Below, one piece after another: positions 630 through 27,644 of a stretch of 37,178 nucleotides of DNA. The stretch is from Gammaproteobacteria bacterium (lineage in GTDB: Bacteria > Pseudomonadota > Gammaproteobacteria > Tenderiales > Tenderiaceae): NCBI GenBank assembly GCA_021731365.1, contig JAKFXL010000041.1, forward strand, positions 1-37,178, in the 5' to 3' direction. The position numbers were made by a program, and so were the translations under genes. Each line of letters begins with the position of its first letter. The stretch's first letter is position 1. The notes below the pieces were generated by a model. That model saw only the letters and a list, made by a program, of their open reading frames with translations. It was not told where the DNA came from and did not search any database.

Positions 630-1325
630 ATGAAACCTAGCCAGTCAAAAGTAAACAGCAGCCTCCCCCTGCTCGCCATTGCCACACTGTGCCTGACCGT
701 AGCCGCACCCGTCACACAGGCAGCAGAGGAGTCCGCGGGTGGGGTTCGCTCTTTTTTATCTGACCCCCAACGGGTAGGCTCGCTGACAGGCACCATCCTC
801 GGCGGTGCCCTGACGGCCCATCCAATCGGGACGCTGGCAGGCAGCATAATCGGCTTTTTTATCGGCAAAGAGACCATGCACAAAGACCCCGAGCAGCAAC
901 AGCCCGCTCAATATAGCTATGCTCAGCGCAGCTTCATTCCAACAACAACTAAAGAGGCCGCAATCCCCATGCTGGCCTTAGAGACATCGACCCCGGCAGC
1001 AATGGCACTACCAGCACCTGTAACCACCTTGATCACATCAGCACCACCAGCCACCCACGTTGCCTCCGCAACTCAGAACAAATCACCGTCAATATCAGTA
1101 ACGGCAGCTCCACCTGCTGTAGCTGTATCACTCCCATCACCGTCGGCAATGAATACCGACCTACACTCAGTCGAAACACTGACCATGGCGATGGACTATG
1201 TCCCTACAGCAAACAAACTATCGCCGCTGGAACAGATCGCCTCCCTCTGCTACGGCAATAGTGGGCAAATCAAAACCAGTAACCCCGACCTGCAGTCACT
1301 CTGCTACTACCACCAGTCCAGCTAA
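630..1325 (+). CDS. Secreted glycine-zipper protein of unknown function
   Basis: A 231-residue protein I do not recognise. It has an N-terminal signal peptide (hydrophobic core LPLLAIATLCLTVAAP, likely cleavage after PVTQA). A glycine-zipper hairpin follows at about residues 48-80 (GSLTGTILGGAL, then GTLAGSIIGFFIGKE), of the kind that inserts into or packs against membranes. Next is a long low-complexity Ala/Pro/Ser/Thr linker (about 90-185) and a small C-terminal segment with two cysteines (SLCYGNSG and LQSLCYYHQ) that could form a disulphide. The architecture suggests a periplasmic or outer-membrane-associated protein with a flexible spacer. Glycine zippers are common in proteobacterial envelope proteins such as SlyB-type lipoproteins, but no lipobox is present. 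It shares its strand with the SPOR gene and converges on the DUF4402 locus. Confidence 0.6.
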   Translation: MKPSQSKVNSSLPLLAIATLCLTVAAPVTQAAEESAGGVRSFLSDPQRVGSLTGTILGGALTAHPIGTLAGSIIGFFIGKETMHKDPEQQQPAQYSYAQRSFIPTTTKEAAIPMLALETSTPAAMALPAPVTTLITSAPPATHVASATQNKSPSISVTAAPPAVAVSLPSPSAMNTDLHSVETLTMAMDYVPTANKLSPLEQIASLCYGNSGQIKTSNPDLQSLCYYHQSS

Positions 1326-1507: not shown

Positions 1508-2488
1508 TCAGTAGGTCACCGTTAAAGAGTAGGTGCCGCTATAGGCACCATTCAAATACGCCTTATTGGTAAGCTCTGTCTCCAGCGTAGCGCCCACTTT
1601 AATTTGCAGCTCACCCATAGCATCGGTTCTGGCACCCGGTGAACTGGGGGAGGTGACAAAACTTTTCACCACAAAACGCGCCGCACTTAACCCCTCTGTC
1701 ACATGGGTAAGAAATATATCTGTTGCCTGAGGGGTAATCGTCACTACATTATTGGGTGCCGCACCGGTGACTCGAATCAAGCCAATCTGCGCCCCACCCA
1801 GAGGCAAAATACGCGCCCCACCCGAGTTCGCCACACTAAGCGCGCCGTTCACCCCTAACGTCATGCTGGCAACCACACCAGGGTTGGAAAATGCCGCAAT
1901 CAAACCAAAAGAGAGCGGCTGGGTTTCAGTAACACTAAAGACAGACTGCAGTTGCGCAACCAGTGTCACCACACCATAGTGGATCAAATAACCACCATCC
2001 GGCTCCGACCAGTAACGCACACGAACCTGGGTTGTTCCACTGTAGGGGGCATCCACATACATAATGCCACTGGCACTGGTCTTAAGCGTCGCCCCCACCG
2101 GCACCACCGCCTCGCCAAAGGCATCCGCCGCCAACGTTGGATTGACGTAGTTGGTCACCTGAAGATACTCCGGCAGACCACCACCGCCAGCGCTCAAGGT
2201 CGCATTATCCCATTGCAGCTCCAGCAATACACCCGGCGGGAATCCAGACAACCGGTACTGGCCACGGACAGCACCACCCATCGGGATAATTTCACCGGTA
2301 TTGCTCACCGCACCTGCAGAGGAGATCGTTAGAGTAGAGACAACGCCATTTGTCTTAACCGCTAACAGACCAAAATTTAACGGCACATTCGCCGTCACGG
2401 CCGGTGCTGCAGAGATGCTGGCAGAAACAGACAGCAGCAGCAACGCCGTCACTTTGCACAACCAACTCGACATCCACCCATTAATCAC
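1508..2488 (-). CDS. Secreted protein with two DUF4402 domains
   Basis: The start chosen is GTG at 2488 because GAGGAG lies six bases upstream. An ATG at 2527 would add 13 residues but has no ribosome-binding site. A signal peptide (core VTALLLLSVSASISA, cleavage before APAV) precedes two tandem DUF4402-like units of about 150 residues. Each opens with a phrase like LNFGLLA or LSFGLIA and closes with a strand ending in an aromatic: APYSGTTQVRVRY at the end of the first, GAYSGTYSLTVTY at the C terminus. DUF4402 proteins are secreted beta-sandwich-like proteins of unproven function. The closing strand resembles the donor strand of chaperone-usher pilins and spore-coat-U pilins. With a PapD-like chaperone two genes upstream, a tip or adhesin subunit is a reasonable inference, not a demonstrated role. 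Confidence 0.75.
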   Translation of the reverse strand: MINGWMSSWLCKVTALLLLSVSASISAAPAVTANVPLNFGLLAVKTNGVVSTLTISSAGAVSNTGEIIPMGGAVRGQYRLSGFPPGVLLELQWDNATLSAGGGGLPEYLQVTNYVNPTLAADAFGEAVVPVGATLKTSASGIMYVDAPYSGTTQVRVRYWSEPDGGYLIHYGVVTLVAQLQSVFSVTETQPLSFGLIAAFSNPGVVASMTLGVNGALSVANSGGARILPLGGAQIGLIRVTGAAPNNVVTITPQATDIFLTHVTEGLSAARFVVKSFVTSPSSPGARTDAMGELQIKVGATLETELTNKAYLNGAYSGTYSLTVTY

Positions 2489-2554
2489 ACCCTGCTCCTC
2501 TGTATTTTTATTTAACATCCGTATCATCAGGCAATACTGCTTATAACAAACAAA

Positions 2555-2577
2555 ACAGGGGCCTCAAAGGCCCCTGT
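2555..2577 (-). terminator. Rho-independent terminator between the two DUF4402 genes
   Basis: A nine-base-pair perfect stem (ACAGGGGCC with GGCCCCTGT, loop TCAAA). On the minus strand it is followed by TTTTGTTTGTT. It lies 31 bases after the single-domain DUF4402 gene stop and 67 bases before the start of the two-domain gene, so it would reduce transcription into the latter. Confidence 0.8.
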
Positions 2578-2607
2578 GCATCGCTTTCAAACCACTTCTA
2601 TTATCTA

Positions 2608-3303
2608 TTAATAATTGGCGGTCACAGTGAAACTTCCTGCATAAGTGGTTGGCTGATAAGCGGTATTACCACTAGAAATATCGGTAAGGATGGTCGCGCC
2701 GATTTTAAAATTCAACGCAGTGGAACCAAAAGCAGGGGTAATCTGACAGGCATATAGCGCATCAACAACGTTAGTGCACAGGGTATTTGCTGTGCCTCCG
2801 GTAACAGCCCCTACCGTAAACTGGGCCAACTGGAACTTGGCCACAGATGGATCAGCCGCCGAAACCAATACCAGATTAGTACCCGTGAGCGCACCGATAG
2901 TTGTACCAAAGGTAGCGGCGCCTAACGCCACGGTACTCACCTCTGCACCCGGTAGTGTCAGCGTGACAGGGGTGGTCGAGCTAACCGCAATAGTAGCCGA
3001 TGCAGGCACATGCCCACCCAGGGCGATCAATGGTTTATCAGCTGCGCTGCCCGGAACATGGGCCCCAACCGTACCGGCTGGACTCAAAACCAGTGCCCCA
3101 TAAGTCTCACCCGCAACCCCTGATGCTGTGTTGGCATACAAGGTACCCAGATTCATGCCGACAATATTAGTAATGGCAACGGTCGTCTGCACAGTGGCAG
3201 TGACCGGAAATGATTCTGCCGACACCGCCCCACTCATGGCCATGCTCAACATGGCCACTGAAGCTGCGATAGATGTCTTGCGGAAAGAGAAATTCATGCT
3301 CAT
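2608..3303 (-). CDS. Secreted single-domain DUF4402 protein, possible major surface subunit
   Basis: A 231-residue protein starting at ATG 3303 with GGAG seven bases upstream. The signal peptide runs to about residue 29 (AMSGAVSA, then ESFPV). The mature part has one DUF4402-type domain: an early strand VAITNIVGMNLGTLY, a Gly/Ala/Ser/Thr-rich middle, two cysteines (C176, C186) that could pair, and a C-terminal strand TTYAGSFTVTANY ending in tyrosine. The composition is low in charge and rich in small residues, as expected for a secreted fibre subunit. It is immediately followed by a strong terminator, which suggests it is the most expressed gene of the locus. An assembly role is inferred from the adjacent PapD-like chaperone. 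The family itself has no established function that I know of. Confidence 0.75.
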   Translation of the reverse strand: MSMNFSFRKTSIAASVAMLSMAMSGAVSAESFPVTATVQTTVAITNIVGMNLGTLYANTASGVAGETYGALVLSPAGTVGAHVPGSAADKPLIALGGHVPASATIAVSSTTPVTLTLPGAEVSTVALGAATFGTTIGALTGTNLVLVSAADPSVAKFQLAQFTVGAVTGGTANTLCTNVVDALYACQITPAFGSTALNFKIGATILTDISSGNTAYQPTTYAGSFTVTANY

Positions 3304-3413
3304 GGTGTTGCTCCATCATTCATTTTTAATTGTTGTATGTAACGGATATTTATTATTTATAAATTCACCGTTTCCGAGAATGATATCGCCTCACTGTTCT
3401 GAACCTTTAACGA

Positions 3414-3443
3414 ATTGTAAAAAATGTTATGACCACCTCACAA
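3414..3443 (-). promoter_or_regulatory. Candidate promoter for the single-domain DUF4402 gene
   Basis: On the minus strand TTGTGA (3443-3438) and TACAAT (3419-3414) are separated by 18 bases, giving a start point about 100 bases before the ATG at 3303. The fit is moderate (four of six and five of six consensus bases). It would allow this gene to be expressed independently of the chaperone. Confidence 0.35.
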
Positions 3444-3491
3444 CTGTTTTAAGCCGCTTCCGCCCCCCAATAAAGATAAAACCACTAATAG

Positions 3492-4373
3492 TTAACGTAT
3501 CTGGAAGACCTTCTCATCCCAGAGTATGCCGGCGTACTCATCCACACCTTCGTAGGCCACACGCACCCACGCCCCCGCCGGGATACTACTGTCACGCAAG
3601 TTCACGACTAACCGGCGCTTACCAACTTCCGCAAAAATACTGATGTTATCAGCCGTCCCGATACGCTCTACAGCAGCCCCGGCATTACGCTGCATATCAA
3701 CACTCACCCGGCCAACGCAACCCGCCAGACCACTGCTCTCCATCAGCACCGCAAGCTGAAGCGGCTGCCCTGGCTCTGTTGCTGGCACAACATCGACACT
3801 CGCGATCTTTACCTGTGGAGTCTCAGCCACCTGATGTCTCACCACCACTGGAATCGCCACGGACATCTGCATACTCACCATCAGGGTCATGCCTTTGTTA
3901 TCACCTTCACCCATAATCTTCTGAACACTCATGGGTTCCGAAAGCTCCTCGACGACACGGAATATCATATGTGAGCGATACTCCCCTGGCTTCATCTCCT
4001 TTCCTGGCTTAAATTCAACACGGACACTCTGGTTAGAATTGGGCAGCACCGTGATTTGGCGCGGTGAGAGGCGCAGGTAAGGACTGGCAGACGCATGTTT
4101 CTGCTCTTCTCCCTCTTTGTATTCACTGTAAACACCATCCTCTGACATGCGCTGCTCAAGCCACTCCAAACGATAGGTGCGTGGACCAGAACTAGGGTTA
4201 CGTAGAATGACGGTGGCCGACCGTTTGTCATCATCCAGATAAACACGTTGCGGGCTGACCAATACATCTGCCCGTAGCGGCAATGCCAGCAGCATTGCCA
4301 GAATAAATGCCACCACAACCGCCACCGAGCCACACTTACGATACCAACCGTGCGCCACCGAACTAAAATGCAT
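3492..4373 (-). CDS. PapD-like periplasmic fimbrial chaperone
   Basis: A 293-residue protein starting at ATG 4373, five bases after AGGAGG. The signal sequence (VAVVVAFILAMLLALPLRA) ends at about residue 35. The first immunoglobulin-like domain begins VLVSPQRVYLDDDKRSATV and continues with LRNPSSGPRTYRLEW, the usual opening of pilus chaperones. LRLSPRQITVLPNSNQSVRV, then KPGEYRSHMIFR, matches the F-G strand region that templates pilin folding. A second beta domain (VKIASVDVV to the end) follows. Such chaperones stabilise subunits by donor-strand complementation and deliver them to an outer-membrane usher. No usher is visible here. The gene lies between the FlgT-like lipoprotein gene (64 bases upstream) and the DUF4402 genes, which are its likely clients. 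Confidence 0.85.
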   Translation of the reverse strand: MHFSSVAHGWYRKCGSVAVVVAFILAMLLALPLRADVLVSPQRVYLDDDKRSATVILRNPSSGPRTYRLEWLEQRMSEDGVYSEYKEGEEQKHASASPYLRLSPRQITVLPNSNQSVRVEFKPGKEMKPGEYRSHMIFRVVEELSEPMSVQKIMGEGDNKGMTLMVSMQMSVAIPVVVRHQVAETPQVKIASVDVVPATEPGQPLQLAVLMESSGLAGCVGRVSVDMQRNAGAAVERIGTADNISIFAEVGKRRLVVNLRDSSIPAGAWVRVAYEGVDEYAGILWDEKVFQIR

Positions 4374-4437
4374 GAGGCCTCCTCATCTTATTTACCATAT
4401 GAATAGATTCAAATTTCACAGGACTAATACCACCCCG

Positions 4438-5388
4438 TTACCAGGCCCGGACACGCAGACCCGCGCTATATTTAGGTGCTCCGCCTTCGCCCTTATAAAC
4501 GGCTACTGCGGATTCCGGAAAAACCTTTATGACCTCAACCGCCCCCAGGCGGCTCTCAATTTGGCCACTCAGACGAAACAGTTGCAAAGTATCACCTGGG
4601 CGAATCAGTGCGGCACCACTGGTGCTGATATATAAACTATCACCCACTACCTTAGTGACTCGGGCCATCAAGGGCAGACAGGCAAGCTTTTTCAAACCCT
4701 GCTCAACCTCGGCATTCAAGACAGAATTTAATGCTTCACCCAGCGGCGTCGTGATAAACGCCCCACGCAATAACGGGCTGCGTGCCAAATTGATCACCTC
4801 GGATTCACTGCCCTCGGCCTGTGTGGCATAAAAGATAGAGGCTATCTGGGAGCCATACAGGCCATCAAATATCAGTAATTCAGCATCGATCTGGCGCTGC
4901 ATCCGTCGCGATGGAATGGTGTACCTGCCAACACCAAACTGCTCACGACTGGTATGCAGATTGTGAAACCGCACCGCCACCACAAACTGCACATCCAACC
5001 GGTTGGCCAGCGCAACAATCCACTCTTGCTGGAGCGGACCGCTGTGAAGATGCTGGTCACTGGCATTCACCACCAAGAGCCGCCCACTCTCATTCAGACG
5101 CTGCTGTAACAACTCAGACCAACCAACCATTAACCCCGGCAGATCGCCAGCATCTTGTGGCTGCAATAGCTCCGTCGCCAGCACCGCCACCTTTTTACGG
5201 TAGGAAAAGGGGGCGCCCTGCCCTGGATCACAAAAATCTACGTCTGCTGGCTTTGCAGGTTCAACCACTTCACTCTGCACCTCAACGACAGCCTGTGGTG
5301 CCACCGCCTGACCAGCACAACCGACCAGCAGCAACAGGGCAATAGCCCCGCTGAGAAATTTCGCTGGTAAATTTGTCATGGTCAACAT
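4438..5388 (-). CDS. FlgT-like outer-membrane or periplasmic lipoprotein
   Basis: Start taken at ATG 5388 (another ATG lies at 5379), because the frame upstream to 5595 runs into a terminator and lacks a signal sequence. The 316-residue product has a lipoprotein signal (LSGAIALLLLVGCAGQ, cysteine in the lipobox LVGC). The middle part (YRKKVAVLATELL, then WSELLQQRLNESGRLLVV, then VQFVVAVRFHNL and LIFDGLYGSQIA) resembles the FlgT middle domain or TolB-N type fold. The C-terminal 75 residues (CLPLMARVTKVVGDSLYI, IRPGDTLQLF) resemble FlgT_C, a small beta barrel. FlgT builds the H ring of sheathed polar flagella. No flagellar genes are present here, so I call this only FlgT-like. Its position ahead of the chaperone suggests a part in the same surface system. 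Confidence 0.55.
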   Translation of the reverse strand: MLTMTNLPAKFLSGAIALLLLVGCAGQAVAPQAVVEVQSEVVEPAKPADVDFCDPGQGAPFSYRKKVAVLATELLQPQDAGDLPGLMVGWSELLQQRLNESGRLLVVNASDQHLHSGPLQQEWIVALANRLDVQFVVAVRFHNLHTSREQFGVGRYTIPSRRMQRQIDAELLIFDGLYGSQIASIFYATQAEGSESEVINLARSPLLRGAFITTPLGEALNSVLNAEVEQGLKKLACLPLMARVTKVVGDSLYISTSGAALIRPGDTLQLFRLSGQIESRLGAVEVIKVFPESAVAVYKGEGGAPKYSAGLRVRAW

Positions 5389-5595
5389 GAAGCGTAGTCC
5401 CTGATCCCAAACAATATGTGCATCACCCGGCGGCCAATCACCGCGGGCATAGTTACCTGGAAAGCAAAATGCGCGCCACTCTTGAGATGAAATGGTGGTC
5501 AAAGAGAAGACAGAGGAATCAGCAGACCTGCAACAGGCCAATCTGGCAATACTTGAATGTGATGGCCCAGCCAAACCACACAGCGCCGTAGCCAT

Positions 5596-5635
5596 AAAAA
5601 AAGCGGCTATACCCGGTGGGCATATCCGCTTTTTT
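5596..5635 (-). terminator. Terminator after trpE (symmetrical hairpin)
   Basis: AAAAAAGCGG at 5597-5606 pairs with CCGCTTTTTT at 5626-5635, enclosing an imperfect inner stem around CCC/GGG. The A and T tracts make it work in either direction. On the minus strand it lies about 70 bases beyond the trpE stop and separates the rpe-gph-trpE unit from the FlgT-like gene. Confidence 0.8.
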
Positions 5636-5704
5636 GAACACTGGCCGACCTCTTCAACAAGGTGCTTGTACCCAGCTACAACCGCTTTATATCAGGGCAG
5701 CCCC

Positions 5705-7183
5705 TTACTCCAGGCCTGCTTCAGCCATGGCGACGGCGCGAAAGATAGCCCGCCCCTTGTTCATGGTCTCATCCCATTCGTTCTTAGCCACTGAGTCAGA
5801 CACCACACCGGCACCGGCCTGGATATGCAGCTTGCCATCTTTGATAACGGCCGTGCGAATGGCGATGGCGGTATCCATGTTGCCGTTCCAACCAATGTAA
5901 CCCACGGCACCACCGTAGACACCCCGCTTCACCGGTTCCAGTTCGTCAATAATCTCCATGGCACGAATTTTTGGCGCTCCAGAGAGCGTACCCGCCGGAA
6001 ATGTGGCGCGCAGCACATCCATCGCATTAAGCCCTGGCTTTAACTTGCCGGTAACGTTAGAGACGATGTGCATGACGTGTGAATAGCGCTCAACCGCCAT
6101 CTTCTCCGTGATTTTGACAGAACCAATCTCGGCAACACGACCCACATCGTTGCGTCCCAGGTCGATGAGCATCAGATGCTCCGCCAGCTCTTTGGGGTCG
6201 GCCAGTAACTCCTGCTCCAGCGCCAGATCCTGCTCCGGTGTCGCCCCCCGTGGCCGGGTGCCCGCAATTGGACGCACTGTCACCTCACCATCCTCCAACC
6301 GTGTCAATATCTCCGGTGAGGAACCCACCACCTGGAACCCATCCAGATTGAGATAAAACATATAAGGTGATGGATTGAGACTCCGCAGGGCGCGGTAAAG
6401 ATCCAGTGGCTCCGCTTTATAAGGGATGCTCAGGCGTTGCGACAATACCACCTGCATGCAGTCACCCTCCACGATGTACTGCTTGACCCGATTCACTGCT
6501 GACTCAAACGCCCGCTTGCCAAAGCCGGATCTGAAGTCGTTTTCAACCACACGGCGAGATTCACGCTTCTTGGCTGTGGCGGGCAACGCCTGATGGCGTA
6601 GCTGCCCCACAATCCCATCGAGACGTTTTTGCCCCTGCTCGTATGCCCCCTCCAGGGCAGGATCGACATGCACAACCACGTACAATCGGCCACGCAGATT
6701 ATCAAAGACCACCACCTCATCCGAGACCAACAGCAGGATATCCGGCACATCAAGGGGGTCTTCATTCACCTTATCCTTCAAACGCGGCTCGATATAACGG
6801 ACAGTATCGTAACCAAAGTAACCCACCAGGCCGCCCGTAAAGCGTGGCAAACCTGGAACGGCGGGGACTTTGAACTGGGCGCGAAAGGCTTCAATGGCGG
6901 CCAGCGGATCATCCACCGTGGTTGTGCCCAACACTTTGCCTTCGTGCTCAACACTCATCTCATAGCCACGCACCTTAAGCACCGTGCGGCACGGCAGGCC
7001 GATGATTGAATAACGGCCCCACTTTTCACCGCCCTCAACAGACTCAAAGAGATAAGAGTAGGGTTCACTGGCCAGTTTCAGGTAAATGCTCAGAGGAGTA
7101 TCCAGATCCGCCATCACTTCACGCATCAGCGGTATGCGGTTATAACCCTCCGCAGCCAGGGCATCGAACTGTTCATGAGTCAT
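5705..7183 (-). CDS. trpE: Anthranilate synthase component I
   Basis: TrpE converts chorismate plus ammonia (from the TrpG glutaminase) to anthranilate, the first committed step to tryptophan. The start is taken at ATG 7183, eight bases after AAAGG. ATG 7189 and GTG 7192 are alternatives. The N-terminal domain has the feedback-site phrase [11 protein letters not shown] followed by WGRYSIIGL. The chorismate-binding domain shows [61 protein letters not shown] and a terminal GAGVVSDS. About 492 residues is the normal length. It follows rpe and gph, a common gammaproteobacterial order, but trpG, trpD and trpC do not follow: a terminator comes next. Upstream are two tiny Trp-containing ORFs, described separately. 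Confidence 0.96.
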
Positions 7184-7188
7184 GATCA

Positions 7189-7265
7189 TCACCTTTCAAT
7201 TACATTTATCCATAAATCCAAACGCCATACGCGGTGCATCACCATCGTCTGCCAGAGTGGTTCAT
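7189..7265 (-). promoter_or_regulatory. Two chained tiny ORFs with Trp codons, possible trpE leader
   Basis: On the minus strand an ATG at 7265 opens MNHSGRRW with TGA at 7241-7239. That TGA overlaps the ATG of a second frame in TGATG, which reads [16 protein letters not shown] and stops at 7191-7189, again in TGATG that supplies an in-frame trpE ATG (7189). Three Trp codons in 24 sense codons is well above the usual one to two per hundred. Neither tiny ORF has a clear ribosome-binding site, and there is no room for a terminator hairpin, so classical attenuation is unlikely. Any control would act through translational coupling. This may be chance. Confidence 0.3.
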
Positions 7266-7303
7266 GACAATATGTATTTGTTGGGTAACTGTTATCCCGT
7301 TAT

Positions 7304-7987
7304 TCATGCAATTTTCTCAAACAGCCCTTTCAGATCGGCCAGTGACTCAACCAGATCATCCGGCTTGGCCTCACGGATATCCTGGCCATGATTATAACCA
7401 TAAGGCACACAAACCACCTGGAACCCCGCATTACGGGCCGCCTGCACATCATGCATGGAGTCGCCGACCATCAGGCAATCAGCCGCAGCCACACCGAGCT
7501 GTTCAGCCGCGTAGAGTAACGGCATCGGATCCGGCTTCTTCTTGGCAGTGGTATCACCACTCACCACCAGATCAAACCGGTCATAAATGGCCATATCCTT
7601 CAACAACGGCACTGTAAACGCCGCCGCCTTGTTGGTAACACAACCGATCTTGATGCCACTAGCCTTAAGATACTCAAGCCCCTCAACCACACCCTCATAC
7701 AGACAGCTGCGGCCACTGGTATTGTTGGCGTAGAGTTCCATATAGATCGGTAACGCCTTTTCAAACTCGGCAGGGTCGGGGTCAACCCATAGCTCATTGG
7801 TAAGCGCCCGCATCACCAGACGCTCAACACCATTGCCAACCCACATACGCACCTTGGCCTCACCCCATGCCGGACGACCTAACGCCTTCATCATCTCATC
7901 AGTGCAATAGGCCAGATCAGGCACGCTGTCGACCATGGTGCCATCAAGGTCGATCAAGACCAGCTTTGGTACTTTATTCAAGCTCAT
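7304..7987 (-). CDS. gph: Phosphoglycolate phosphatase (HAD family)
   Basis: This enzyme hydrolyses 2-phosphoglycolate, made by DNA repair and by Rubisco oxygenation, to glycolate. The 227-residue protein shows all HAD motifs: LVLIDLDGTMVDS (nucleophile D13, acid D15), the helical cap (about 20-90), IGCVTNK (motif II), KKKPDPMPL (motif III lysine) and LMVGDSMHDVQAARNAG (motif IV). It lies between rpe and trpE on the same strand, six bases after rpe, the common rpe-gph-trpE arrangement. Other HAD phosphatases look similar, but length and context favour Gph. Confidence 0.92.
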   Translation of the reverse strand: MSLNKVPKLVLIDLDGTMVDSVPDLAYCTDEMMKALGRPAWGEAKVRMWVGNGVERLVMRALTNELWVDPDPAEFEKALPIYMELYANNTSGRSCLYEGVVEGLEYLKASGIKIGCVTNKAAAFTVPLLKDMAIYDRFDLVVSGDTTAKKKPDPMPLLYAAEQLGVAAADCLMVGDSMHDVQAARNAGFQVVCVPYGYNHGQDIREAKPDDLVESLADLKGLFEKIA

Positions 7988-7993
7988 CAGCCG

Positions 7994-8683
7994 TTATTTC
8001 GCTTTGGCAAGTTCGGCACGCATCGCAGCAACCACTGTATCGTAGCTGTTAGCATCGCTGCTATTGCGCGCGCCAAAAATAGCTGACCCAGCCACAAAGG
8101 TATCTGCACCTGCTTCAGCAATCGCACGAATGTTATCCACCTTAACGCCACCATCAATCTCAAGGCGGATATCACGACCAGAGGCATCGATGATCTTGCG
8201 TGCTTCGCGCAGTTTATCGAGCGTGGCAGGGATAAAGCTCTGGCCACCAAAACCGGGGTTAACCGACATCAATAGCACCATATCGACCTTATCAATCACA
8301 TATTTCAGTACATCCAGTGAGGTGGCCGGGTTGAAAACCAGACCCGCTTTACACCCCTCGCCTTTAATCAACTGCAGGGTGCGATCGATATGCTCAGAGG
8401 CTTCAGGGTGGAAGGTAATGTAGGTGGCACCCGCCTTGGCAAAGTCAGGAATGATCCGATCAACCGGCTTTACCATTAGATGCACATCGATCGGTGCCGT
8501 TACGCCATGTTTGCGTAACGCTTCACAAACCAGAGGGCCAATCGTCAGATTAGGCACATAGTGGTTATCCATAACATCAAAATGCACGATATCCGTGCCA
8601 GCATTTAATACATTCACCACTTCCTCACCCAAACGGGCGAAATCGGCGGACAAAATCGAAGGGGCGATTTTGAAATCTAACAT
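7994..8683 (-). CDS. rpe: Ribulose-phosphate 3-epimerase
   Basis: Rpe interconverts D-ribulose 5-phosphate and D-xylulose 5-phosphate in the pentose phosphate and Calvin cycles. The 229-residue TIM barrel begins [18 protein letters not shown]. Metal ligands H34 and D36 lie in [14 protein letters not shown]68 in DVHLMVK, and D177 in RLEIDGGV. The flexible loop is [12 protein letters not shown] and the phosphate site is [11 protein letters not shown] 8683 follows AGAGG at six bases. It is the first gene of the rpe-gph-trpE unit and faces away from the DUF3530 gene. Confidence 0.96.
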
Positions 8684-10296: not shown

Positions 10297-11334
10297 TCAG
10301 CTACGGATTAAACCATAACGGGTCAAGCTCCACTTCACGGCCACCCAAGAGACCGCTACAACGGCAATAGTCACACCAATATCCCACAATGAACTCATCG
10401 GTGTATGGTAGTACTGAGGATCAGTAGAACCGGAGATCCACGTATAACGTTCCAACCACGAGCCTATCAAGATACTAAAGGCCACCATTACAATAACAAC
10501 CGGGTTATGGCGGTTAGGTGTAAATGCCAGCGTACAGAACGGAATGACAAACTTAAGCACCAGGAAGAGCCACCACAGACCACTCATATAATCCATCATA
10601 TTGTCATAACGAATCATCTCCTCAGGCAGACGTCCGTACCACATGATCAGATACTGAGTGAAATAGAGGTAAGTCCAGAGAATAGTCATCGCCAACATAA
10701 ACTGAGCCATAAAATTGAAGATATAACTCTGAACACCACCCGCTACCAATTTGCCTGAGCGATTCAAGAAGAACAGGAAAATAGTGAAGAAGGCCAAGAA
10801 CATATGAAAATTACTTTGGAAATGGTACGCGCCATAACTGGCACTATGCCAACCAGGGTTCAACCCTTGAGTCATTTCGAAGTCCCACGCCACCATTGAG
10901 CCATAAGCAAAATAGAAAAACGGAATCAGTAGAGCAACATTCCGAAAACGACGCTGCGCCGCATACGAACTATCAATCGCGGCTTGATGTTGAAGCTTAA
11001 TAAACAGCAGATAGAGGCCTGCAACAACCAAGAAACCTACCACCTCCCTCGCAACCAGGAACGTGTAATTGTGCCAACCAGGCAGATGATGCTCAGCATC
11101 ATGTGCATGAGTCAGCCACGGAAACGCAGCCTCACCAGACGCCAATATTATCAACAACAATACAAACGCTATTGGAAATAACACCGCCAGCGAACAGGCC
11201 AGATAACGAACCTGGAAACGCCATTGACCGTTACACAGATGCAACACAGCTGACAGGGTCACACCACCCAACGCCAGATATAGCACTAATATGAAGTTGG
11301 TCATCACAACCGACCAGAAGCCAAAGTTTTCCAT
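10297..11334 (-). CDS. actF: Alternative complex III subunit ActF (NrfD-like membrane subunit)
   Basis: ActF is the second NrfD-type integral membrane subunit of alternative complex III, a distant paralogue of ActC. The 345-residue protein is almost entirely transmembrane. About ten helices are visible, beginning FWSVVMTNFILVLYLALGG and ending in IGVTIAVVAVSWVAVKW. Polar phrases inside the membrane include TFLVAREVVGF and FNFMAQFMLAMTILWTYLYF. ATG 11334 is preceded by GAGGGG. It is the last gene of the operon, 33 bases after actE, and is followed by the terminator at 10245-10273. Its likely role is to support the membrane arm and possible proton path of the complex. In characterised complexes quinol is thought to bind in ActC. 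Confidence 0.9.
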   Translation of the reverse strand: MENFGFWSVVMTNFILVLYLALGGVTLSAVLHLCNGQWRFQVRYLACSLAVLFPIAFVLLLIILASGEAAFPWLTHAHDAEHHLPGWHNYTFLVAREVVGFLVVAGLYLLFIKLQHQAAIDSSYAAQRRFRNVALLIPFFYFAYGSMVAWDFEMTQGLNPGWHSASYGAYHFQSNFHMFLAFFTIFLFFLNRSGKLVAGGVQSYIFNFMAQFMLAMTILWTYLYFTQYLIMWYGRLPEEMIRYDNMMDYMSGLWWLFLVLKFVIPFCTLAFTPNRHNPVVIVMVAFSILIGSWLERYTWISGSTDPQYYHTPMSSLWDIGVTIAVVAVSWVAVKWSLTRYGLIRS

Positions 11335-11367
11335 GCTACCCCTCGTAATTTATTGGATTTTTACTCA

Positions 11368-11910
11368 TTACTTGGCCACAACAGAACTGGCAGCCGCCGC
11401 ATGGTCTTTCACTAGACCATTTTTAATGTAATTAACAACGTGCCAGCGTTCTTCAACACTGAGGTCATTAGAGCCACGTTTACCCTGCGGCACACCATAT
11501 GCCGGCATAACATAGCTACCAAACGTAATAGTTCCCCAGAGCCAACCTTCACTCAAGTTTTCTTGGACATAGCTATCTGTCAGACTAATTGCACCAATCT
11601 TGCTACTCACAGGTGAGTCAGCCGCACCTGTCAAACCATGACAAGCCGCACAATATATTACAAACAACCCTTGCCCTTTTTTAAGCGACTCAGGCGACAC
11701 AGCTACCGGATTTACCATCTCCTTTGCTTCATCTCTACTAGCAACCTTGGTTGGAATCCCTGTAGTTGGTATAGAGCGCTCAGGAAAGGGGATCATCGTC
11801 CCCTCTTGAGGCTTAATGCTCGGCTGGTTCATCATATCGGTTGACCATGGCCAAGCCAGCGCCGCAGTTGGCACCATCAGTGCGCCCGCAATTACACTCT
11901 TAAACCTCAT
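11368..11910 (-). CDS. actE: Alternative complex III subunit ActE (monohaem cytochrome c)
   Basis: A 180-residue exported monohaem cytochrome c. The signal sequence is short (MRFKSVIAGALMVPTAALA). There is no lipobox cysteine, whereas some ActE proteins are lipidated. The haem site is CAACH (C87, C90, H91) in FVIYCAACHGLTG. The axial methionine is probably M135 in SYVMPAYG. ActE accepts electrons from the Fe-S/haem relay of the complex and passes them on to an oxidase or a soluble carrier. The ATG at 11910 overlaps the actD stop in ATGA, with GAGG seven bases upstream, so translation is coupled. Confidence 0.92.
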   Translation of the reverse strand: MRFKSVIAGALMVPTAALAWPWSTDMMNQPSIKPQEGTMIPFPERSIPTTGIPTKVASRDEAKEMVNPVAVSPESLKKGQGLFVIYCAACHGLTGAADSPVSSKIGAISLTDSYVQENLSEGWLWGTITFGSYVMPAYGVPQGKRGSNDLSVEERWHVVNYIKNGLVKDHAAAASSVVAK

Positions 11911-12434
11911 TGCGACACCTCTTCACGAATTTCCAGAACCTTATGCTTGCCAAAGAGCTCCTTAATCGGATTAACGTTTTTCTCGTCCAACTCCAGCAAT
12001 ATTCCAATCTGATCAAGACTAACCTTTTCAGAGTAGAGAGGATGGCGTCTTGTAAATAATCGGGCGCTGATAAGAAACCCTATTACGGTAGACAGAACTC
12101 CAAATAGTATCAACAGTTCGTACGTTAGCACTATATTGGATGGCAACGGTATGACTGCCTTCCCACCTTGAGGCTGCACCAGAAAAGTCGCCTGGGCCGA
12201 AGCAAGAAACAGAAAACCAAAACACATCCCAAAAATCGCACCAAACAAGGTGAACTTCGGTATTGGCGAGCCTCTGTCTCCTAAAACCTCTTCAATCTCA
12301 GGATGCTCTATTGGAGACTTCAAGGTCACATCATCAACCGACACCCCTGGAACCGCATGGTTACGGATCTCAGCGATAGTGGCAAACGCCTCCTCAAAGT
12401 TGCTAAACAAACCCATGACGTAATAGCGCTTCAT
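11907..12434 (-). CDS. actD: Alternative complex III subunit ActD (DUF3341)
   Basis: ActD is the DUF3341 membrane subunit. The 175-residue protein begins MKRYYVMGLFSNFEEAFATI, a small cytoplasmic alpha/beta-like head. Two transmembrane helices follow (FTLFGAIFGMCFGFLFLASA and ELLILFGVLSTVIGFLISA), then RRHPLYSEKVSLDQIGILLE, the usual family end. ATG 12434 is chosen because GGGAG lies seven bases upstream; a TTG at 12440 would extend it by two codons. It begins three bases after the actC stop. In the known structures ActD packs against the ActC/ActF membrane pair and has no cofactor. Confidence 0.92.
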   Translation of the reverse strand: MKRYYVMGLFSNFEEAFATIAEIRNHAVPGVSVDDVTLKSPIEHPEIEEVLGDRGSPIPKFTLFGAIFGMCFGFLFLASAQATFLVQPQGGKAVIPLPSNIVLTYELLILFGVLSTVIGFLISARLFTRRHPLYSEKVSLDQIGILLELDEKNVNPIKELFGKHKVLEIREEVSQ

Positions 12435-12436
12435 GA

Positions 12437-13846
12437 TCAAACTCCCTTTGTACTTGGCGTACTGCCTGGCTGAGGGTCTTCAGCACGACGATGCAGAGAG
12501 ACCGCCAAGTCTGGACGATGTGCTGTACGGCGATGAAACACCATCTCTTTAACTTCATACATAGAGACCGATGGAAAGACCTTAACAAACACCAGGAACA
12601 ACAGTCCAAACCAACCAAAACTACCAAATACAATCGCCCACTGCACCATACTTGGCCAGACAATTGACCATGCAAACGGCTCATAGTTTTGTGATAACGT
12701 CGGTCCAACAATCATCCAACGCTCGAGCCACATACCTAGATTAAGAAACAGCGACACCACAAACATAGTAGGCAAATGCCGACGTAATTTCTCAACAGCT
12801 AGGGTAAACGGCATCACCGAACCCAAAAAGAGCATCATCCAAAAGTACGGTGCATATGGACCGGTAAACTTCCAGTAGAGCAACTCTTTTGCAACCATGT
12901 CATGGCCGTACCAAGTAGCCGCGAACTCAATCAGGTTCAGGTAAGTCCAGACCATCGCAATGGCAAACGTCAACTTACAGGTCTTTTCCAAGATTGGAAT
13001 GGTCATGTACTCTTCAAAGCGGAAGAAATACCGCAAGATGATAAACAGAGTAATGATGGCCGCACAACCTGAATACAACGCCCCTGCAACAAAGTACGGC
13101 GGGAAGGTTGTTACATGCCAACCAGGCATTATCGACATGGCAAAGTCAGCTGATACAATGGAGTGCACCGATACCGCCAGCGGAATCAGGAAACAGGCCA
13201 TCAACAGGTAGATACGGCGGAAGTTACGCCATTGCCGATCATCACCTTGCCACCCCAAAGAGAGCACGGTATAGAGCTTTTGACGCCAGCCGCGTGCATT
13301 ATCACGACATATCGCCAAATCAGGAATCATTCCGATAAACAGGAACATTGCCGAGGAAGTAAGATACGTTGTGATCGCAAACGCATCCCAAGAGAGAGGC
13401 GAGCGAAAGTTAGGCCAAATACCACGATCACTGACATACGGTAGTACCCAGTACATATTCCAGACACGGCCCAAGTGGATGATCGGAAAAAGACCCGCGG
13501 TCATCAAGGAGAAGGTTGTCATCGCTTCAGCAAAACGATAAATAGGTTTGCGCCAATCAGCGTGAATAATGTGCAGAATAGCCGACAAAAGGGTACCGGA
13601 ATGGCTCATACCAATCCAGAATACAAACGTTGCTATGTACAACCCCCACATCTGAGACCACGTCAGGTTGGCAGGCCCCAAACCTGTCTGATACTGGTAA
13701 ATTTCAGCAACCACTGCACAACTTACCATTGCCAGACAGCACACAACCGCTATCCAGTACCCCATTCGCGGATTTTCCATGCTTCGCAGCACATCCGCAT
13801 TAATTTTTGCCCAAGCTATATTTTCATCAATATCTTTTGTTTGCAT
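12437..13846 (-). CDS. actC: Alternative complex III subunit ActC (NrfD-like, quinol-binding)
   Basis: ActC is the large NrfD-type membrane subunit where quinol is oxidised, close to the Fe-S subunit. The 469-residue protein has about ten helices, from YWIAVVCCLAMVSCAVVAEI through MWGLYIATFVFWIGMSHSGT and MFLFIGMIPDLAI to FGWFGLLFLVFVKVF. Polar residues in helices that may take part in quinol binding or proton movement include the SHSGT phrase, the RFAEAMT phrase and the LIEFAATWYGHD phrase. Length and the N-terminal MENPRMGYW region fit gammaproteobacterial ActC. It follows actB2 after a 41-base gap, and its stop lies three bases before the actD ATG. Confidence 0.93.
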   Translation of the reverse strand: MQTKDIDENIAWAKINADVLRSMENPRMGYWIAVVCCLAMVSCAVVAEIYQYQTGLGPANLTWSQMWGLYIATFVFWIGMSHSGTLLSAILHIIHADWRKPIYRFAEAMTTFSLMTAGLFPIIHLGRVWNMYWVLPYVSDRGIWPNFRSPLSWDAFAITTYLTSSAMFLFIGMIPDLAICRDNARGWRQKLYTVLSLGWQGDDRQWRNFRRIYLLMACFLIPLAVSVHSIVSADFAMSIMPGWHVTTFPPYFVAGALYSGCAAIITLFIILRYFFRFEEYMTIPILEKTCKLTFAIAMVWTYLNLIEFAATWYGHDMVAKELLYWKFTGPYAPYFWMMLFLGSVMPFTLAVEKLRRHLPTMFVVSLFLNLGMWLERWMIVGPTLSQNYEPFAWSIVWPSMVQWAIVFGSFGWFGLLFLVFVKVFPSVSMYEVKEMVFHRRTAHRPDLAVSLHRRAEDPQPGSTPSTKGV

Positions 13847-13887
13847 AGGTCACACCACTTTATATTTGTATGGCCATTACGGACGGA

Positions 13888-14733
13888 TTAGGCTTCACGC
13901 ACTCGATCCAAGTACAACACCTTAGGATCTGTGTTCAACCCCTCCAGCACCCGATAACCGCGCAGCTCTTTGTTTTCTTTGCTCTGCTTCGCCTTCCCCA
14001 GCACTACCTGTTGTGACTCCCAGACCTTGCTAACCTTAGAGGTTTTATCCAAGAGATCCCCAAAGATAATCGCCTGAGTCGGACATGTCTGAGCACACGC
14101 TGTAATCACATCGCCATCTTTCACCACACGCTCCTCACGCTGAGCCGTGTCCTTAGCTGTACGAATACGCTGCACACAGAAAGTACACTTCTCCATCACC
14201 CCCTTATCACGAACACTCAGGTCCGGATTCAACTGCATATGCAGAGGAGCGGGCCATGACTCTTCGTAATAAGAGTAAAAATTGAAATAACGGAGACGAT
14301 ATGGGCAGTTGTTTGAACAGTAGCGCGATCCGATACAGCGGTTATACACCTGCGCATTCAAACCATCCGGTGTATGGTAGGTAGCCGCGACTGGGCAGAC
14401 AGGCTCACAAGTTGCTGAATTACACTGCTGGCACATCATTGGCAAAACACTGCCTCCACGCACCTGAAACTCATTGTCATCCCCACCCAAATCGGGCTCG
14501 TCCCAGTAGCGCTCCATCCGCAACCAGTGCATGCCCTGGTGTTTCATCATGCGATCTTTACCAACTGTGGCCAGATTATTTTCTGCATAACAGGCAACAG
14601 AACACGCATTACAACCAGTGCATTTATTCAGATCGATGGCCATACCCCACATATGTTCATATGTGTGATGGCCGCCCTCTTCCGCACCTTTGCGATAATT
14701 CGACCAATTCTCAAGAACATTCTTAAGCGACAT
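13888..14733 (-). CDS. actB2: Alternative complex III subunit ActB2 (four-cluster ferredoxin-like)
   Basis: This is the iron-sulphur half of ActB, encoded here as a separate gene of 281 residues. ATG 14733 follows AAGGAGG at five bases, a very strong site. The gene overlaps the actB1 stop by 11 bases. Four cysteine groups are visible: CTGCNACSVAC, CQQCNSATCEPVCP, CIGSRYCSNNCP, and CTFC with a later CAQTCP. In the third group a serine stands where PsrB/NrfC-type proteins have cysteine (CIGC), the expected signature of a [3Fe-4S] cluster. The set therefore predicts three [4Fe-4S] and one [3Fe-4S], as reported for alternative complex III. It has no signal of its own and is probably exported with ActB1. 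Confidence 0.93.
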   Translation of the reverse strand: MSLKNVLENWSNYRKGAEEGGHHTYEHMWGMAIDLNKCTGCNACSVACYAENNLATVGKDRMMKHQGMHWLRMERYWDEPDLGGDDNEFQVRGGSVLPMMCQQCNSATCEPVCPVAATYHTPDGLNAQVYNRCIGSRYCSNNCPYRLRYFNFYSYYEESWPAPLHMQLNPDLSVRDKGVMEKCTFCVQRIRTAKDTAQREERVVKDGDVITACAQTCPTQAIIFGDLLDKTSKVSKVWESQQVVLGKAKQSKENKELRGYRVLEGLNTDPKVLYLDRVREA

Positions 14734-16939
14734 CAGAGCCTCCTTCTGTCCTTCTGAAAACATCGGCAGCTACGGTAGCAACAAGCTTGCGTCCCATCTG
14801 ATATTCACTACCACCAAGACGTGCAAGCTTTGCATGTTTACCCGTCTTGCTAATACGAACCTGGGTTGCATACGCTGCAATCTCGCCACTCTTCTCTTCA
14901 ATCGCCGGACTAAGCATCTTCAACACATTCACGCCCACACCTTTGGCGTAACGACCGTATGCTTCGTGCCCCTGTCCCATTGGGATAGCGACAACGTCCG
15001 GATGAACACCTTTAAAGATATAAACCTGCACTTCAACCGCGCCTTGGGCCGATTCAACACGAATAAAATCACCCTCTTTCACACCCAGCTTATCAGCTGT
15101 TTTGGGGTGAAGCTCCGCCCAGGAATCCCAGAAAACCTTACTGACTTGGTCGGGAGCCTCCTGCAACCACGGTAAGTTAGCGTTACGTCCATCCCACATG
15201 TTTTGATGAATAGAAGGAACCAGATGCATTGGATAGTCTGTCGCCGGTTTCTGGCTAACCTGAGTTATATCACCCACAACAGCCGTCAACGCCGAGCCAC
15301 TCGCCGAGGCCTTAATAAAGCCCCGCTGCAAGGTGTCCGCCCAAAAAACATCGTCACTCTTTCCATCTTTTAATGAGGCTGGCAGCGACTTTAAAACACC
15401 ACGCAGATATGCGTAATAATCATCAAAGTCAGCATACCCTTCAACTCCGCGATGCTTCAACATTCCCAACAGAAGATCACCAAAAGCTCGTGTTTCAGGG
15501 TATAGCTGCTTCATCACAGGCTGAGACATGCTAATCGCCCCACCCTTTGGTTGATAAGGGGCCACGTGAGTAGCCCACTCCTCATAGGATGAAGACAGCG
15601 GCAACACCACATCCGCCACCATTGTGGTTTCGTCCATAAACATGGAGAACACTACTTTGAACGGAACTTTAGACAATTTCTCGCTTAACGCCAAATGGTT
15701 CGGGGCACTATAAACAGGATTTGCACCTTGGAAAAAAACAACATCATATTGCCCATCACCGACGGCCTTTGTGAAGTCAAGCAATGCCCGACTACTACCC
15801 GTGCGGGCACGTAACTCATCGAACATTACCGAGTTGGATGCCTCAATCGTTTTCCCAATGTTGCCCAACAATACATTAAGCATCATGATTGCCATTGCAT
15901 TTTGATAGCCATTAACATGGCCATGCGCTGATGCCCCCGAAAGGACAACGCTTGGCGAGCGCTCCTTTAGATAAGCAGCAATACGAGAGACTGTCTCACC
16001 CGCTACGCCTGTAATCTCCGTTACTTTTTCAGCACTATACTGTGCAATCACATCACGCTGGGCAACACTCAAAGATGCACCATCCAGCTGATGCTTGGTG
16101 AGTAATACGTTTGCTATACCAAGAGCCAAGACACCTTCCGTACCAGGACGCGCAGCAACCCACAGATCTGCGTTCATACCTGTCATTGACATCTTTGGTT
16201 CAACTTGTATCAAGACACCACGATCGCCACTGCGGAATTCGGCGTACTCTTGAGAGAAGTGTACTGGTGATAACCAAGTTCCCAGAAAATCGGCACCAAA
16301 CGATAAGACCGTTTTAGCTTTTGCAATGTGGTAACTTGGCATTGCATCCCCTAACACCTCTTTGTTCACCGCCTCACCCACAGCATTATTAATGGCCTCG
16401 TAGGTAAAGTGATCACCACCCCACGCTGTTTTAAGCTCAGCAAGCAACACAGATTGATGGCCACTCACGGTACCCGTGAACCAAGCACTTCGACCCGGAG
16501 CAACATTGGATGCTTTTTCCTGCATCAACTTCCAGACTTCATCCCAGCTAACGGGAACAAGATCACCTCCCTGGCGCACCATAGGCTGGGTAATGCGGTC
16601 AGGGTTATAGTGTGTTTGTACACTCGCCTGCCCCATCTGACACAGACCCACACCATTTATTGGTGAGTCTGGGTTCCCTTCCACTTTAAGCAGGCGTCCT
16701 TCACGTACACGCCCATGTACACCGCACGCAGATGGACACTGTTGACAGGTTGAGGCATACCACACCCCAATTCCAGGAATCACATACTCTTCAGGCGCAA
16801 GGTAGGAGACAACGGTCTCCTTTCCTTCCTCTAGAGTAACGGTAGTTGGCATGTCGCAACCACTTAGAGCTGCCGCACTTACACCACCCAGACCCATGTA
16901 CTTCAGGAAGTCCCTGCGGTTGATATCGTTACCACTCAT
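14723..16939 (-). CDS. actB1: Alternative complex III subunit ActB1 (molybdopterin-oxidoreductase-like)
   Basis: The 738-residue protein resembles the large subunits of polysulphide and tetrathionate reductases. It opens with a twin-arginine signal (NRRDFLKYMGLGG) and a lipobox ending in cysteine (AAALSGC, C28), so it is predicted to be folded in the cytoplasm, exported by Tat and lipid-anchored. C65, C68, C72 and C100 (TCQQCPSACG, then VGLCQMG) have the spacing of the [4Fe-4S] site of this superfamily. In studied alternative complex III enzymes this part carries no molybdenum cofactor, so presence of a pterin should not be assumed. The C-terminal beta-barrel domain (GVKEGDFIRVES, VVAIPMGQGHEAYGRYAKG) is complete. 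It follows actA by 63 bases and overlaps actB2. Confidence 0.92.
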   Translation of the reverse strand: MSGNDINRRDFLKYMGLGGVSAAALSGCDMPTTVTLEEGKETVVSYLAPEEYVIPGIGVWYASTCQQCPSACGVHGRVREGRLLKVEGNPDSPINGVGLCQMGQASVQTHYNPDRITQPMVRQGGDLVPVSWDEVWKLMQEKASNVAPGRSAWFTGTVSGHQSVLLAELKTAWGGDHFTYEAINNAVGEAVNKEVLGDAMPSYHIAKAKTVLSFGADFLGTWLSPVHFSQEYAEFRSGDRGVLIQVEPKMSMTGMNADLWVAARPGTEGVLALGIANVLLTKHQLDGASLSVAQRDVIAQYSAEKVTEITGVAGETVSRIAAYLKERSPSVVLSGASAHGHVNGYQNAMAIMMLNVLLGNIGKTIEASNSVMFDELRARTGSSRALLDFTKAVGDGQYDVVFFQGANPVYSAPNHLALSEKLSKVPFKVVFSMFMDETTMVADVVLPLSSSYEEWATHVAPYQPKGGAISMSQPVMKQLYPETRAFGDLLLGMLKHRGVEGYADFDDYYAYLRGVLKSLPASLKDGKSDDVFWADTLQRGFIKASASGSALTAVVGDITQVSQKPATDYPMHLVPSIHQNMWDGRNANLPWLQEAPDQVSKVFWDSWAELHPKTADKLGVKEGDFIRVESAQGAVEVQVYIFKGVHPDVVAIPMGQGHEAYGRYAKGVGVNVLKMLSPAIEEKSGEIAAYATQVRISKTGKHAKLARLGGSEYQMGRKLVATVAADVFRRTEGGSDVA

Positions 16940-17002
16940 AACAATTCATCCGTTCTTTAGTTAATCGTGCTGGCCAGACCCGAAGATCCTAGACCCACCC
17001 AG

Positions 17003-17638
17003 TTACTTATGACACTTCCAGCAATCGGAAGGGCCGCCATTAGCCTCGTGACAACGCACGCAGAACCCCATGTTCAATGGTTTGACTTTTTGCGCCACTG
17101 TCATTTTCTTTACATCTCCATGACAGAAGGCACACACTTCAGAAACATTTTCAACCTTCATGCCTTCGTTTTTAAAGACAAACCGCTGCAAATGTTTTTC
17201 ATGCGTAAAATGAACATAATCAGGGACGTCATGAACCTTATTCCACTGTGGTGGTTCATTTTTCTCCCAATACTCAGTCAACTGTTTGATACGGGGCTTA
17301 TCTGTTGCTATTACCGAATGACACCCCATACATTTACTGGTAGGCGGTATCCCGGCAACCTTGCTACGCCGTGCATATGTGTGACAATACATGCAGTTAA
17401 TGCCATTTACATCCGCATGAATATCGTGCGGAAACTCAATGGGCTGCGGCACATGCTTGCCATTATGAGTGCCTACAGGAGGCACCGCATTAGGCACTTC
17501 AGCAGACGCGCTGGCCACAAAGAACAGCCCGCTCAGCCCTAACAACGCGGCGCTCAATGAAACCAAGCCGCGACCGAGGCGTGATCGCTTCATACCAGAC
17601 CCACCCTGCTTAGAGTTAACGTTATCACTCACAAACAT
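17003..17638 (-). CDS. actA: Alternative complex III subunit ActA (pentahaem cytochrome c)
   Basis: ActA is the pentahaem c-type subunit on the periplasmic face. Five haem motifs are present: CMYCH (82-86), CMGCH (103-107), CAFCH (169-173), CVRCH (193-197) and CWKCH (206-210). Extra histidines (FPHDIHAD, HFTHEKHL) are candidate distal ligands. A membrane-targeting segment (LVSLSAALLGLSGLFFVASASA) precedes the haem domain and may be a signal peptide or a retained anchor. ATG 17638 is preferred because GAGG lies six bases upstream; ATG 17593 is an alternative with a weaker site. The frame stays open up to a GTG at 17848, which I regard as leader. It is the first gene of the act operon. Confidence 0.92.
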   Translation of the reverse strand: MFVSDNVNSKQGGSGMKRSRLGRGLVSLSAALLGLSGLFFVASASAEVPNAVPPVGTHNGKHVPQPIEFPHDIHADVNGINCMYCHTYARRSKVAGIPPTSKCMGCHSVIATDKPRIKQLTEYWEKNEPPQWNKVHDVPDYVHFTHEKHLQRFVFKNEGMKVENVSEVCAFCHGDVKKMTVAQKVKPLNMGFCVRCHEANGGPSDCWKCHK

Positions 17639-18093
17639 CTCAATCCTCGATCTGTTTAATAGATCCCAAAAGGTATCATTGTAAATATTAAGAACCATAC
17701 CCCAGAGCTGAAAATCAGAATGCGCCAACATAGAGAGCACACGCCATTCATGCTTTGATTTACTGGTACAGATGAACCCCAAATTTAATGAACCGGATAC
17801 ACTAAGACCAAACCACAACAGCCCTGCATCCCGCCCTAATACTGCCACCCTGTTTTAATACGGGTTTTTTGTTTTTCCAAAGGGTTTTCCCCTTTTCCTG
17901 CTACTCGACCTAGCTTTTCTATTTATTAGCCCCAACCATTAATCGGGTTTAACTGGTCGTTATTGTTAAGCAATTCCGCATCCTAGACCAGTTTCAAGTC
18001 GAATGTCAACGCTCAATACTCAACAAATAAAAGATATCAGAACATTCAATTAATTTTGCTGCTGCGACGCTGGATATTCCTGCCTTCTTTTTT
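17639..18093. other. Intergenic leader between Nif3 and actA
   Basis: About 455 bases without a supported gene. It contains a good minus-strand promoter candidate at 17980-18009 and so probably a 5' leader of more than 300 bases for the act operon. A small hairpin (AAAGGG with CCCTTT near 17879-17896) lacks a T tract on either side that would make it a clear terminator. The minus-strand frame in phase with actA is open from 17848, but it has no ribosome-binding site, starts only with GTG and shows no recognisable domain. Confidence 0.5.
17980..18009 (-). promoter_or_regulatory. actA: Candidate sigma-70 promoter of the act operon
   Basis: On the minus strand a perfect TTGACA (18009-18004) is separated by 18 bases from TAGGAT (17985-17980). 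Transcription would begin near 17973, about 335 bases before the actA ATG. The -35 box is consensus and the -10 matches four of six bases. Confidence 0.5.
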
Positions 18094-23784: not shown

Positions 23785-23819
23785 TGTCGGTTTCCTTGCA
23801 GAGTTTTATCGAAATAAAT

Positions 23820-24470: not shown

Positions 24471-24507
24471 CAAAAAATTCCGTAACCCAGATCGACCTTA
24501 GCCGTAA

Positions 24508-25101: not shown

Positions 25102-25139
25102 TTAATCTCTCCATCACCAACTTACGATACCCAATACAA

Positions 25140-26240: not shown

Positions 26241-26297
26241 GGCGATTTCCCCGATTTTACAATGATTGCTTAGGTAAGGCACTACACCCATAGCATA

Positions 26298-26311
26298 TTA
26301 GCATATGCTAA
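26298..26311. repeat. 14-base perfect palindrome at the hisD 3' end
   Basis: TTAGCATATGCTAA reads identically on both strands and covers the hisD stop codon. It is preceded by another TAGCATAT copy at 26291-26298. It could be a chance A/T-rich palindrome or a binding site. No terminator T tract follows. Confidence 0.4.
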
Positions 26312-27615: not shown

Positions 27616-27644
27616 ATCATTACTCCACTCACTCTACAGCCACC

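Follow-up and report, generated by a model that had tools for sequence, protein, structure and literature searches.

The DNA analysed here (hereafter the window) is a stretch of 37,178 nucleotides that makes up an entire contig (JAKFXL010000041.1, here C33) of a gammaproteobacterial genome of the family Tenderiaceae (GCA_021731365.1, here G000), and its first part carries genes that, together with the end of another contig, would encode a chaperone-usher pilus. Four open reading frames on the minus strand, reported in a preliminary description of the window and found to be real, encode a lipoprotein with a FlgT-like domain (4438..5388, open frame to 5595; FlgT_M 57 bits, lipobox LVGC), a PapD-like periplasmic chaperone predicted to be of archaic type (3492..4373), a protein with one DUF4402-type domain and a long N-terminal extension (hereafter DUF1; 2608..3303) and a protein with two DUF4402 domains and a short N-terminal extension (hereafter DUF2; 1508..2527). 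Between the DUF1 and DUF2 genes lies an intrinsic terminator or attenuator (2555..2577, minus strand), composed of a 10-bp stem followed by a T-rich tail (folding z-score -4.7). On the plus strand we found a gene for a PdsO-like glycine-zipper protein (630..1325), recognised by a weak TIGR03789 match (25 bits, under the cut-off of that model), and, cut by the contig edge (2..319), the end of a gene whose last 105 residues form a SPOR domain (PF05036, 35 bits). The preliminary description had proposed a chaperone-dependent surface fibre built from the four minus-strand products, an idea that, judging from the comparisons below, appears to be right in outline.

The identity of the truncated gene became apparent from the closest relative that carries the locus (G005, locus L038), in which the four-gene block is followed by a convergent PdsO-like gene and by a gene for a 1016-residue protein ending in a SPOR domain like that encoded by bases 2-319 of the window. 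A search of the own genome with this protein (an usher, as detailed below) matched the end of contig C40 with residues 3-923 (G000:C40:27872-30683; about 920 residues) and the start of C33 with residues 931-1015; the ends of the two contigs have 8 bases in common, and over residues 3-923 the own protein is 56% identical to that of L038. Beyond the usher gene, C40 continues with trpG, trpD and trpC, and the window continues beyond the FlgT-like lipoprotein with trpE, an order identical to that of G005 and G010, in both of which the block is uninterrupted and the usher intact. Given the search matches, the shared bases and the order of the trp genes, we infer that C40 and C33 are adjacent and that the usher gene is part of the locus, merely cut by a contig edge. 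The earlier statement that no usher is visible thus holds for the complete genes of the window and fails for its first bases, which encode an usher tail, and the suggestion that an usher may lie elsewhere was borne out on the neighbouring contig.

A plain Pfam scan and early searches of solved structures would by themselves have concealed this usher. Among 42 members of its family, Pfam assigns SdrD_B in 40 and CarboxypepD_reg in 39 (both in the C-terminal part), PF00577 reaches E < 0.01 in 2, and in the own genome a PF00577 search gave no usher above the curated cut-off; neither Pfam nor NCBIfam recognises the divergent protein as an usher, and when solved structures were searched with the single sequence and, initially, with a profile, no usher came up, only SdrD-type B domains in the C terminus. 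The initial label of CarboxypepD_reg/SdrD_B protein was set aside in light of later profile comparison and of the predicted fold. A profile of 70 members matched six E. coli K-12 ushers with 97.1% probability over 457 collinear columns (about 13% identity), and control profiles (TonB receptor, porin, FadL-type proteins, shuffled and reversed profiles) stayed at 0.1-4.9%; compared with 23 ushers from genomes of the same class, the probability rose to 99.6% (E 2e-23, 702 columns). By profile scores, to which we confine ourselves because the divergence is too great for a simple tree, the sigma-like ushers of the class are matched better than those of K-12; EcpC is not matched (0.1%), and one usher has a weak match to the TcfC E-set model. 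The predicted structure of the L038 usher (predicted local distance difference test, pLDDT, 83.8) comprises an N-terminal domain, a plug-interrupted barrel, C-terminal domains and the SPOR domain, FimD and PapC structures fill the first 18 places among its PDB matches (E 1e-29), and in VIA-align it reaches Z up to 18.9 for ushers versus 14.6 for the next barrel family. Profiles and model agree that the large protein is a divergent outer-membrane usher, and the premise that the locus lacks one is explained by a contig-edge effect together with the blindness of family models. A PamR (‘CPR pilus’) match from NCBIfam in 3 of the 42 ushers is weak and was not taken as an identification: in the one protein inspected it is local, lies about the plug region and scores 16 bits against a cut-off of 300, and our literature search found no paper on PamR. 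One usher gene of the family (L024 in G066, 4866-8040) is split into several frames, like a decaying copy.

The locus behaves as a unit. In the own genome, G005 and G010, the genes for the FlgT-like lipoprotein, the chaperone, DUF1, DUF2, the PdsO-like protein and the usher all sit between trpE and trpG; in three relatives without the locus (G003, G007 and G008) the gap between trpE and trpG, within rpe-gph-trpE-trpG-trpD-trpC, amounts to 9, 2 and 10 bases respectively, and in a fourth (G001) to about 470 bases. As all six genes share this site and relatives present it empty, we consider that they are gained and lost as a block. A single-protein search of the genome contigs with the window chaperone, which is too divergent for this purpose, yielded nothing; wider relatives were found by one degenerate motif drawn from the usher alignment (a first, wider alignment held no stretch that was conserved enough), and this motif retrieved 244 relatives in a species-level genome collection, affiliated with Pseudoalteromonas, Shewanella, Marinobacter, Halomonas, Paraglaciecola, Alphaproteobacteria, Desulfobulbus, Chlorobi and others. 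From the 80 relatives that we retrieved, 66 had enough flanking sequence for a neighbourhood test: a chaperone gene lies near the usher in 65 of them (chance alone would give about 0.7 loci if each genome held three copies), a DUF4402 gene likewise in 65, and both in 64. The co-occurrence that the preliminary description proposed to look for is thus recurrent: genes for subunits, chaperone and usher share a locus (without interruption in G005 and G010), and hundreds of bacterial genomes, most of them from marine bacteria, contain the gene set. Copies are also present on plasmids of Polaromonas, Pseudoalteromonas, Novosphingobium and Sphingopyxis; no counterpart of the window's own DUF2 turned up in the collection of plasmids. 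Of 369 genomes sampled from the class, 11 harbor the divergent usher and 26 a PF00577 usher, none of the latter at loci of the divergent family, and since two genomes carry a separate PF00577 usher (G010:C73:24209-25786 and G166:C28:9273-10631) in addition to the divergent one, the two kinds evidently coexist. Gene order varies among the loci, and several Alphaproteobacteria and Desulfobulbus (L083, L086, L092, L106, L112, L051, L059) have subunits and chaperone encoded on one strand and the usher on the other, an arrangement also seen in the family of the window.

The claim that the second gene of the block encodes a pilus-type chaperone was upheld by profile comparison, the protein scoring below the Pfam cut-off for PapD_N (14.6 bits, cut-off 23). 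Its profile matches archaic chaperones with 98.4% probability versus 90.8% for the E. coli K-12 chaperones. One proline is invariant throughout the chaperone superfamily, and the archaic and alternative chaperones have no counterpart of the classical basic pair, their signature being an arginine (position 89 in CsuC) that anchors the subunit C terminus (PMC4654587). In the family of the window chaperone, Pro104 and Pro175 are invariant, the arginine of a GEYR motif (Arg133) is nearly so, and the position of the classical lysine is taken by an invariant proline; in the profile alignment the GEYR arginine stands opposite the archaic one. The profile matches and Pro104 mark the protein as a PapD-like chaperone with the invariant proline of the superfamily, and the presence of the non-classical arginine and the absence of the classical lysine indicate, at the level of sequence, that it is of the archaic type, although the arginine does not single out the archaic clade, being common to the alternative chaperones too.

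With respect to the putative subunits, DUF2 contains two DUF4402 stretches (PF14352, 51.7 and 34.3 bits; 74 bits for the whole protein), and DUF1, which has no direct Pfam match, joins the DUF4402 profile at 98.5% probability, so that both DUF4402 assignments made earlier stand, that of DUF1 by profile comparison only. The eight best Foldseek matches of the DUF1 model (pLDDT 79) are all chaperone-usher pilins with modest E-values; taken alone, this predicted fold is suggestive of a pilin. Across the family, 38 of 53 subunits match DUF4402 and none matches the spore-coat-U Pfam model (PF05229) at E 0.01; a view of DUF4402 as a plain relative of spore-coat U was not established, profile similarity being only suggestive. 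The subunits have a conserved C-terminal strand. In known pilins the C-terminal strand is held by the chaperone and the donor is the N-terminal extension; by this analogy, the C termini GTYSLTVTY and GSFTVTANY, which had been proposed as donor strands, would correspond instead to the last (F) strand, held by the chaperone. According to a crude signal-peptide rule, in 38 of the 53 loci with at least two subunits one subunit has a long N-terminal extension and another almost none, a pattern that the window repeats with a long extension on DUF1 and a short one before the first strand of DUF2. Moreover, the DUF1 gene of the window is followed by a strong intrinsic terminator, which would fit a demand for surplus DUF1, and hairpins of different sequence occupy the equivalent place in L038 and L039. 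Extension lengths and terminator together suggest that the single-domain DUF1 is the polymerising pilin and the two-domain DUF2 the tip, which is in line with the roles first assigned to them.

The preliminary description had also envisaged the FlgT-like lipoprotein as the outer-membrane base of an usher-less fibre. Such an arrangement would accord with a window devoid of a complete usher gene, with the blank PF00577 search and with the lipoprotein being a constant member of the block in the family of the window; set against this are the divergent usher that belongs to the locus and the fact that an adjacent FlgT-like gene is missing from the module in most relatives elsewhere, which do have subunits, chaperone and usher, and we regard it as barely credible. 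The lipoprotein does not replace the usher and would serve as an accessory. Only FlgT_M was found in it by Pfam (FlgT_N was not), and FlgT_M occurs in exactly 3 of 11 genomes of the family (the own genome, G005 and G010), solely at the module, and is absent from the eight genomes without the module, complete ones included. The own genome has two flagellin genes and no other FlgT_M protein, on which grounds the lipoprotein could be taken for the flagellar FlgT of the organism that simply lies beside pilus genes; this we deem very unlikely, as FlgT_N was not found, the eight genomes without the module have no FlgT_M, the lipoprotein moves with the trpE-trpG block, and the true FlgT of Pseudoalteromonas has all three domains (FlgT_N, FlgT_M and FlgT_C) and sits among flagellar genes. 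We therefore consider the lipoprotein part of the pilus module rather than a flagellar gene, FlgT_M being confined to the module despite the flagellins of the own genome.

FlgT-like matches in 22 of the 66 loci were discarded as a strong link, most of them coming from Pseudoalteromonas, where a true flagellar FlgT lies beside flgO and other flagellar genes. For this reason only cases in or beside the module were counted elsewhere; apart from the family of the window, these are L043, L063, L064 and three Marinobacter loci (L040-L042), and FlgT_C is present in some module relatives. The PdsO-like gene adjoins that of the usher in L017/L038, L018/L039, L023/L043, L025/L063 and L064. Pilus genes directly adjoin flagellar genes of the flgO/flgT/flgP type in Pseudoalteromonas loci such as L054 (11850-15851), where three FlgO-family lipoproteins come straight after the usher.

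Among known systems, the archaic (sigma) pili, such as Csu of Acinetobacter baumannii, are similar in chaperone type (profile and signature residues), include the ushers of the class nearest to the divergent one and have subunits that end in a G.Y....V.V.[YF] strand similar to that of the DUF4402 subunits. Unlike them, the module has DUF4402 subunits without a spore-coat-U Pfam match, an usher that is missed by PF00577, has SdrD_B-like C-terminal domains and in 9 of 42 members bears a SPOR tail, and, in the family of the window, the additional FlgT_M and PdsO-like proteins. Classical (gamma) pili, i.e. type 1 and P pili of E. coli, have the same usher fold (FimD/PapC) and the same gene logic of subunit, chaperone and usher, but their ushers are only about 13% identical to the divergent one, and the window chaperone has the archaic arginine and no classical lysine. 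As regards alternative (alpha) pili (CFA/I and Ecp), the CfaB pilins are the best Foldseek matches of the DUF1 model and the chaperone arginine is common to EcpB, whereas the usher has no profile match to EcpC. With FlgT of the flagellar H-ring the window protein shares FlgT_M (and some module relatives FlgT_C), but it is lipidated, no FlgT_N was found in it, and it is tied to a pilus module, not to flagella. Because the subunits are DUF4402 rather than spore-coat-U proteins and the usher escapes PF00577, we describe the module as an archaic-like branch and refrain from filing it as a sigma member; it is widespread and divergent, and has unusual accessories. In the open-access literature that we searched (subscription journals lay outside the scope), DUF4402 is unmentioned and the module undescribed.

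Taken together, these observations make it very probable that the six genes constitute a full chaperone-usher pilus module belonging to a divergent, archaic-like branch, whose proposed mode of working is outlined below. Several points weigh against this interpretation: the usher gene is not contiguous in the present assembly, where the adjacency of C40 and C33 is inferred; a plain multiple alignment sets the GEYR arginine two residues away from the archaic one; the profile matches of DUF4402 to spore-coat U (32%) and to K-12 pilins (17%) are low and local; the pattern of long and short extensions is missing in 15 of the 53 loci, and the rule by which lengths were obtained is crude; the best Foldseek E-value of DUF1 is a modest 0.011; in VIA-align, DUF1 reaches Z 7.5 with carbohydrate-binding modules (over fewer residues) versus up to 6.6 with pilins; and secretion, polymerisation and the fibre itself are predictions from genes and modelled structures. 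The likeness of the DUF1 fold to carbohydrate-binding modules also fits a variant in which the machinery works and its product is not rod-like, the DUF4402 proteins being exported as short oligomers into a thin amorphous coat or matrix layer, and archaic and F1-like systems can indeed make thin or coat-like fibres. We consider this outcome unlikely, though less so than the two alternatives above, since the combination within a locus of a subunit that has a donor-type extension and another that lacks it is in keeping with a tip-and-shaft fibre, and the attenuator after DUF1 fits a subunit made in excess.

In the pilus that we propose, DUF1 and DUF2 would reach the periplasm by Sec, where the chaperone would lend its G1 strand to each subunit and fix the C-terminal tyrosine of the latter, and the resulting chaperone-subunit pairs would dock on the outer-membrane usher. 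DUF2, having no free N-terminal donor strand, would be taken first and form the tip, and DUF1, which has one, would polymerise into the shaft by donor-strand exchange, the terminator after its gene keeping it in excess over DUF2. As the C-terminal domains of ushers are periplasmic in known systems, the SPOR tail could reach peptidoglycan and might tether the usher, at the septum or the poles, to glycan-stripped peptidoglycan; the PdsO-like protein and the FlgT_M lipoprotein would act as outer-membrane accessories. A bolder version, to which we give tentative credence, somewhat short of an even chance, is that the module constitutes a separate deep chaperone-usher branch outside the described clades, in which an usher with a peptidoglycan-binding SPOR tail recruits the FlgT_M lipoprotein and thereby places pili at the septum or the poles.

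Elsewhere in the window, reading of the translations points to two further clusters on the minus strand. The first (10297-17848) looks like a respiratory cluster for alternative complex III (ActA-F type), with a multihaem cytochrome, an iron-sulphur/molybdopterin-like large subunit and two NrfD-like membrane proteins, and the second (22292-28292) comprises hisF, hisA, hisH, hisB, hisC, hisD and hisG of histidine biosynthesis, then murA.

As the 369 genomes of the class include 11 with the divergent usher and 26 with PF00577 ushers, a survey that relies on PF00577 will overlook a considerable part of the chaperone-usher systems of environmental bacteria. The module assigns DUF4402 proteins a concrete, if proposed, function as pilus subunits, and explains neighbouring proteins annotated as ‘carboxypeptidase regulatory-like’ or ‘SdrD B-like’. 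Furthermore, the SPOR tail suggests a link between pilus placement and peptidoglycan, and, should the deep-branch version prove true, these bacteria would possess a pilus usher that is itself equipped with an anchor for the site of division.

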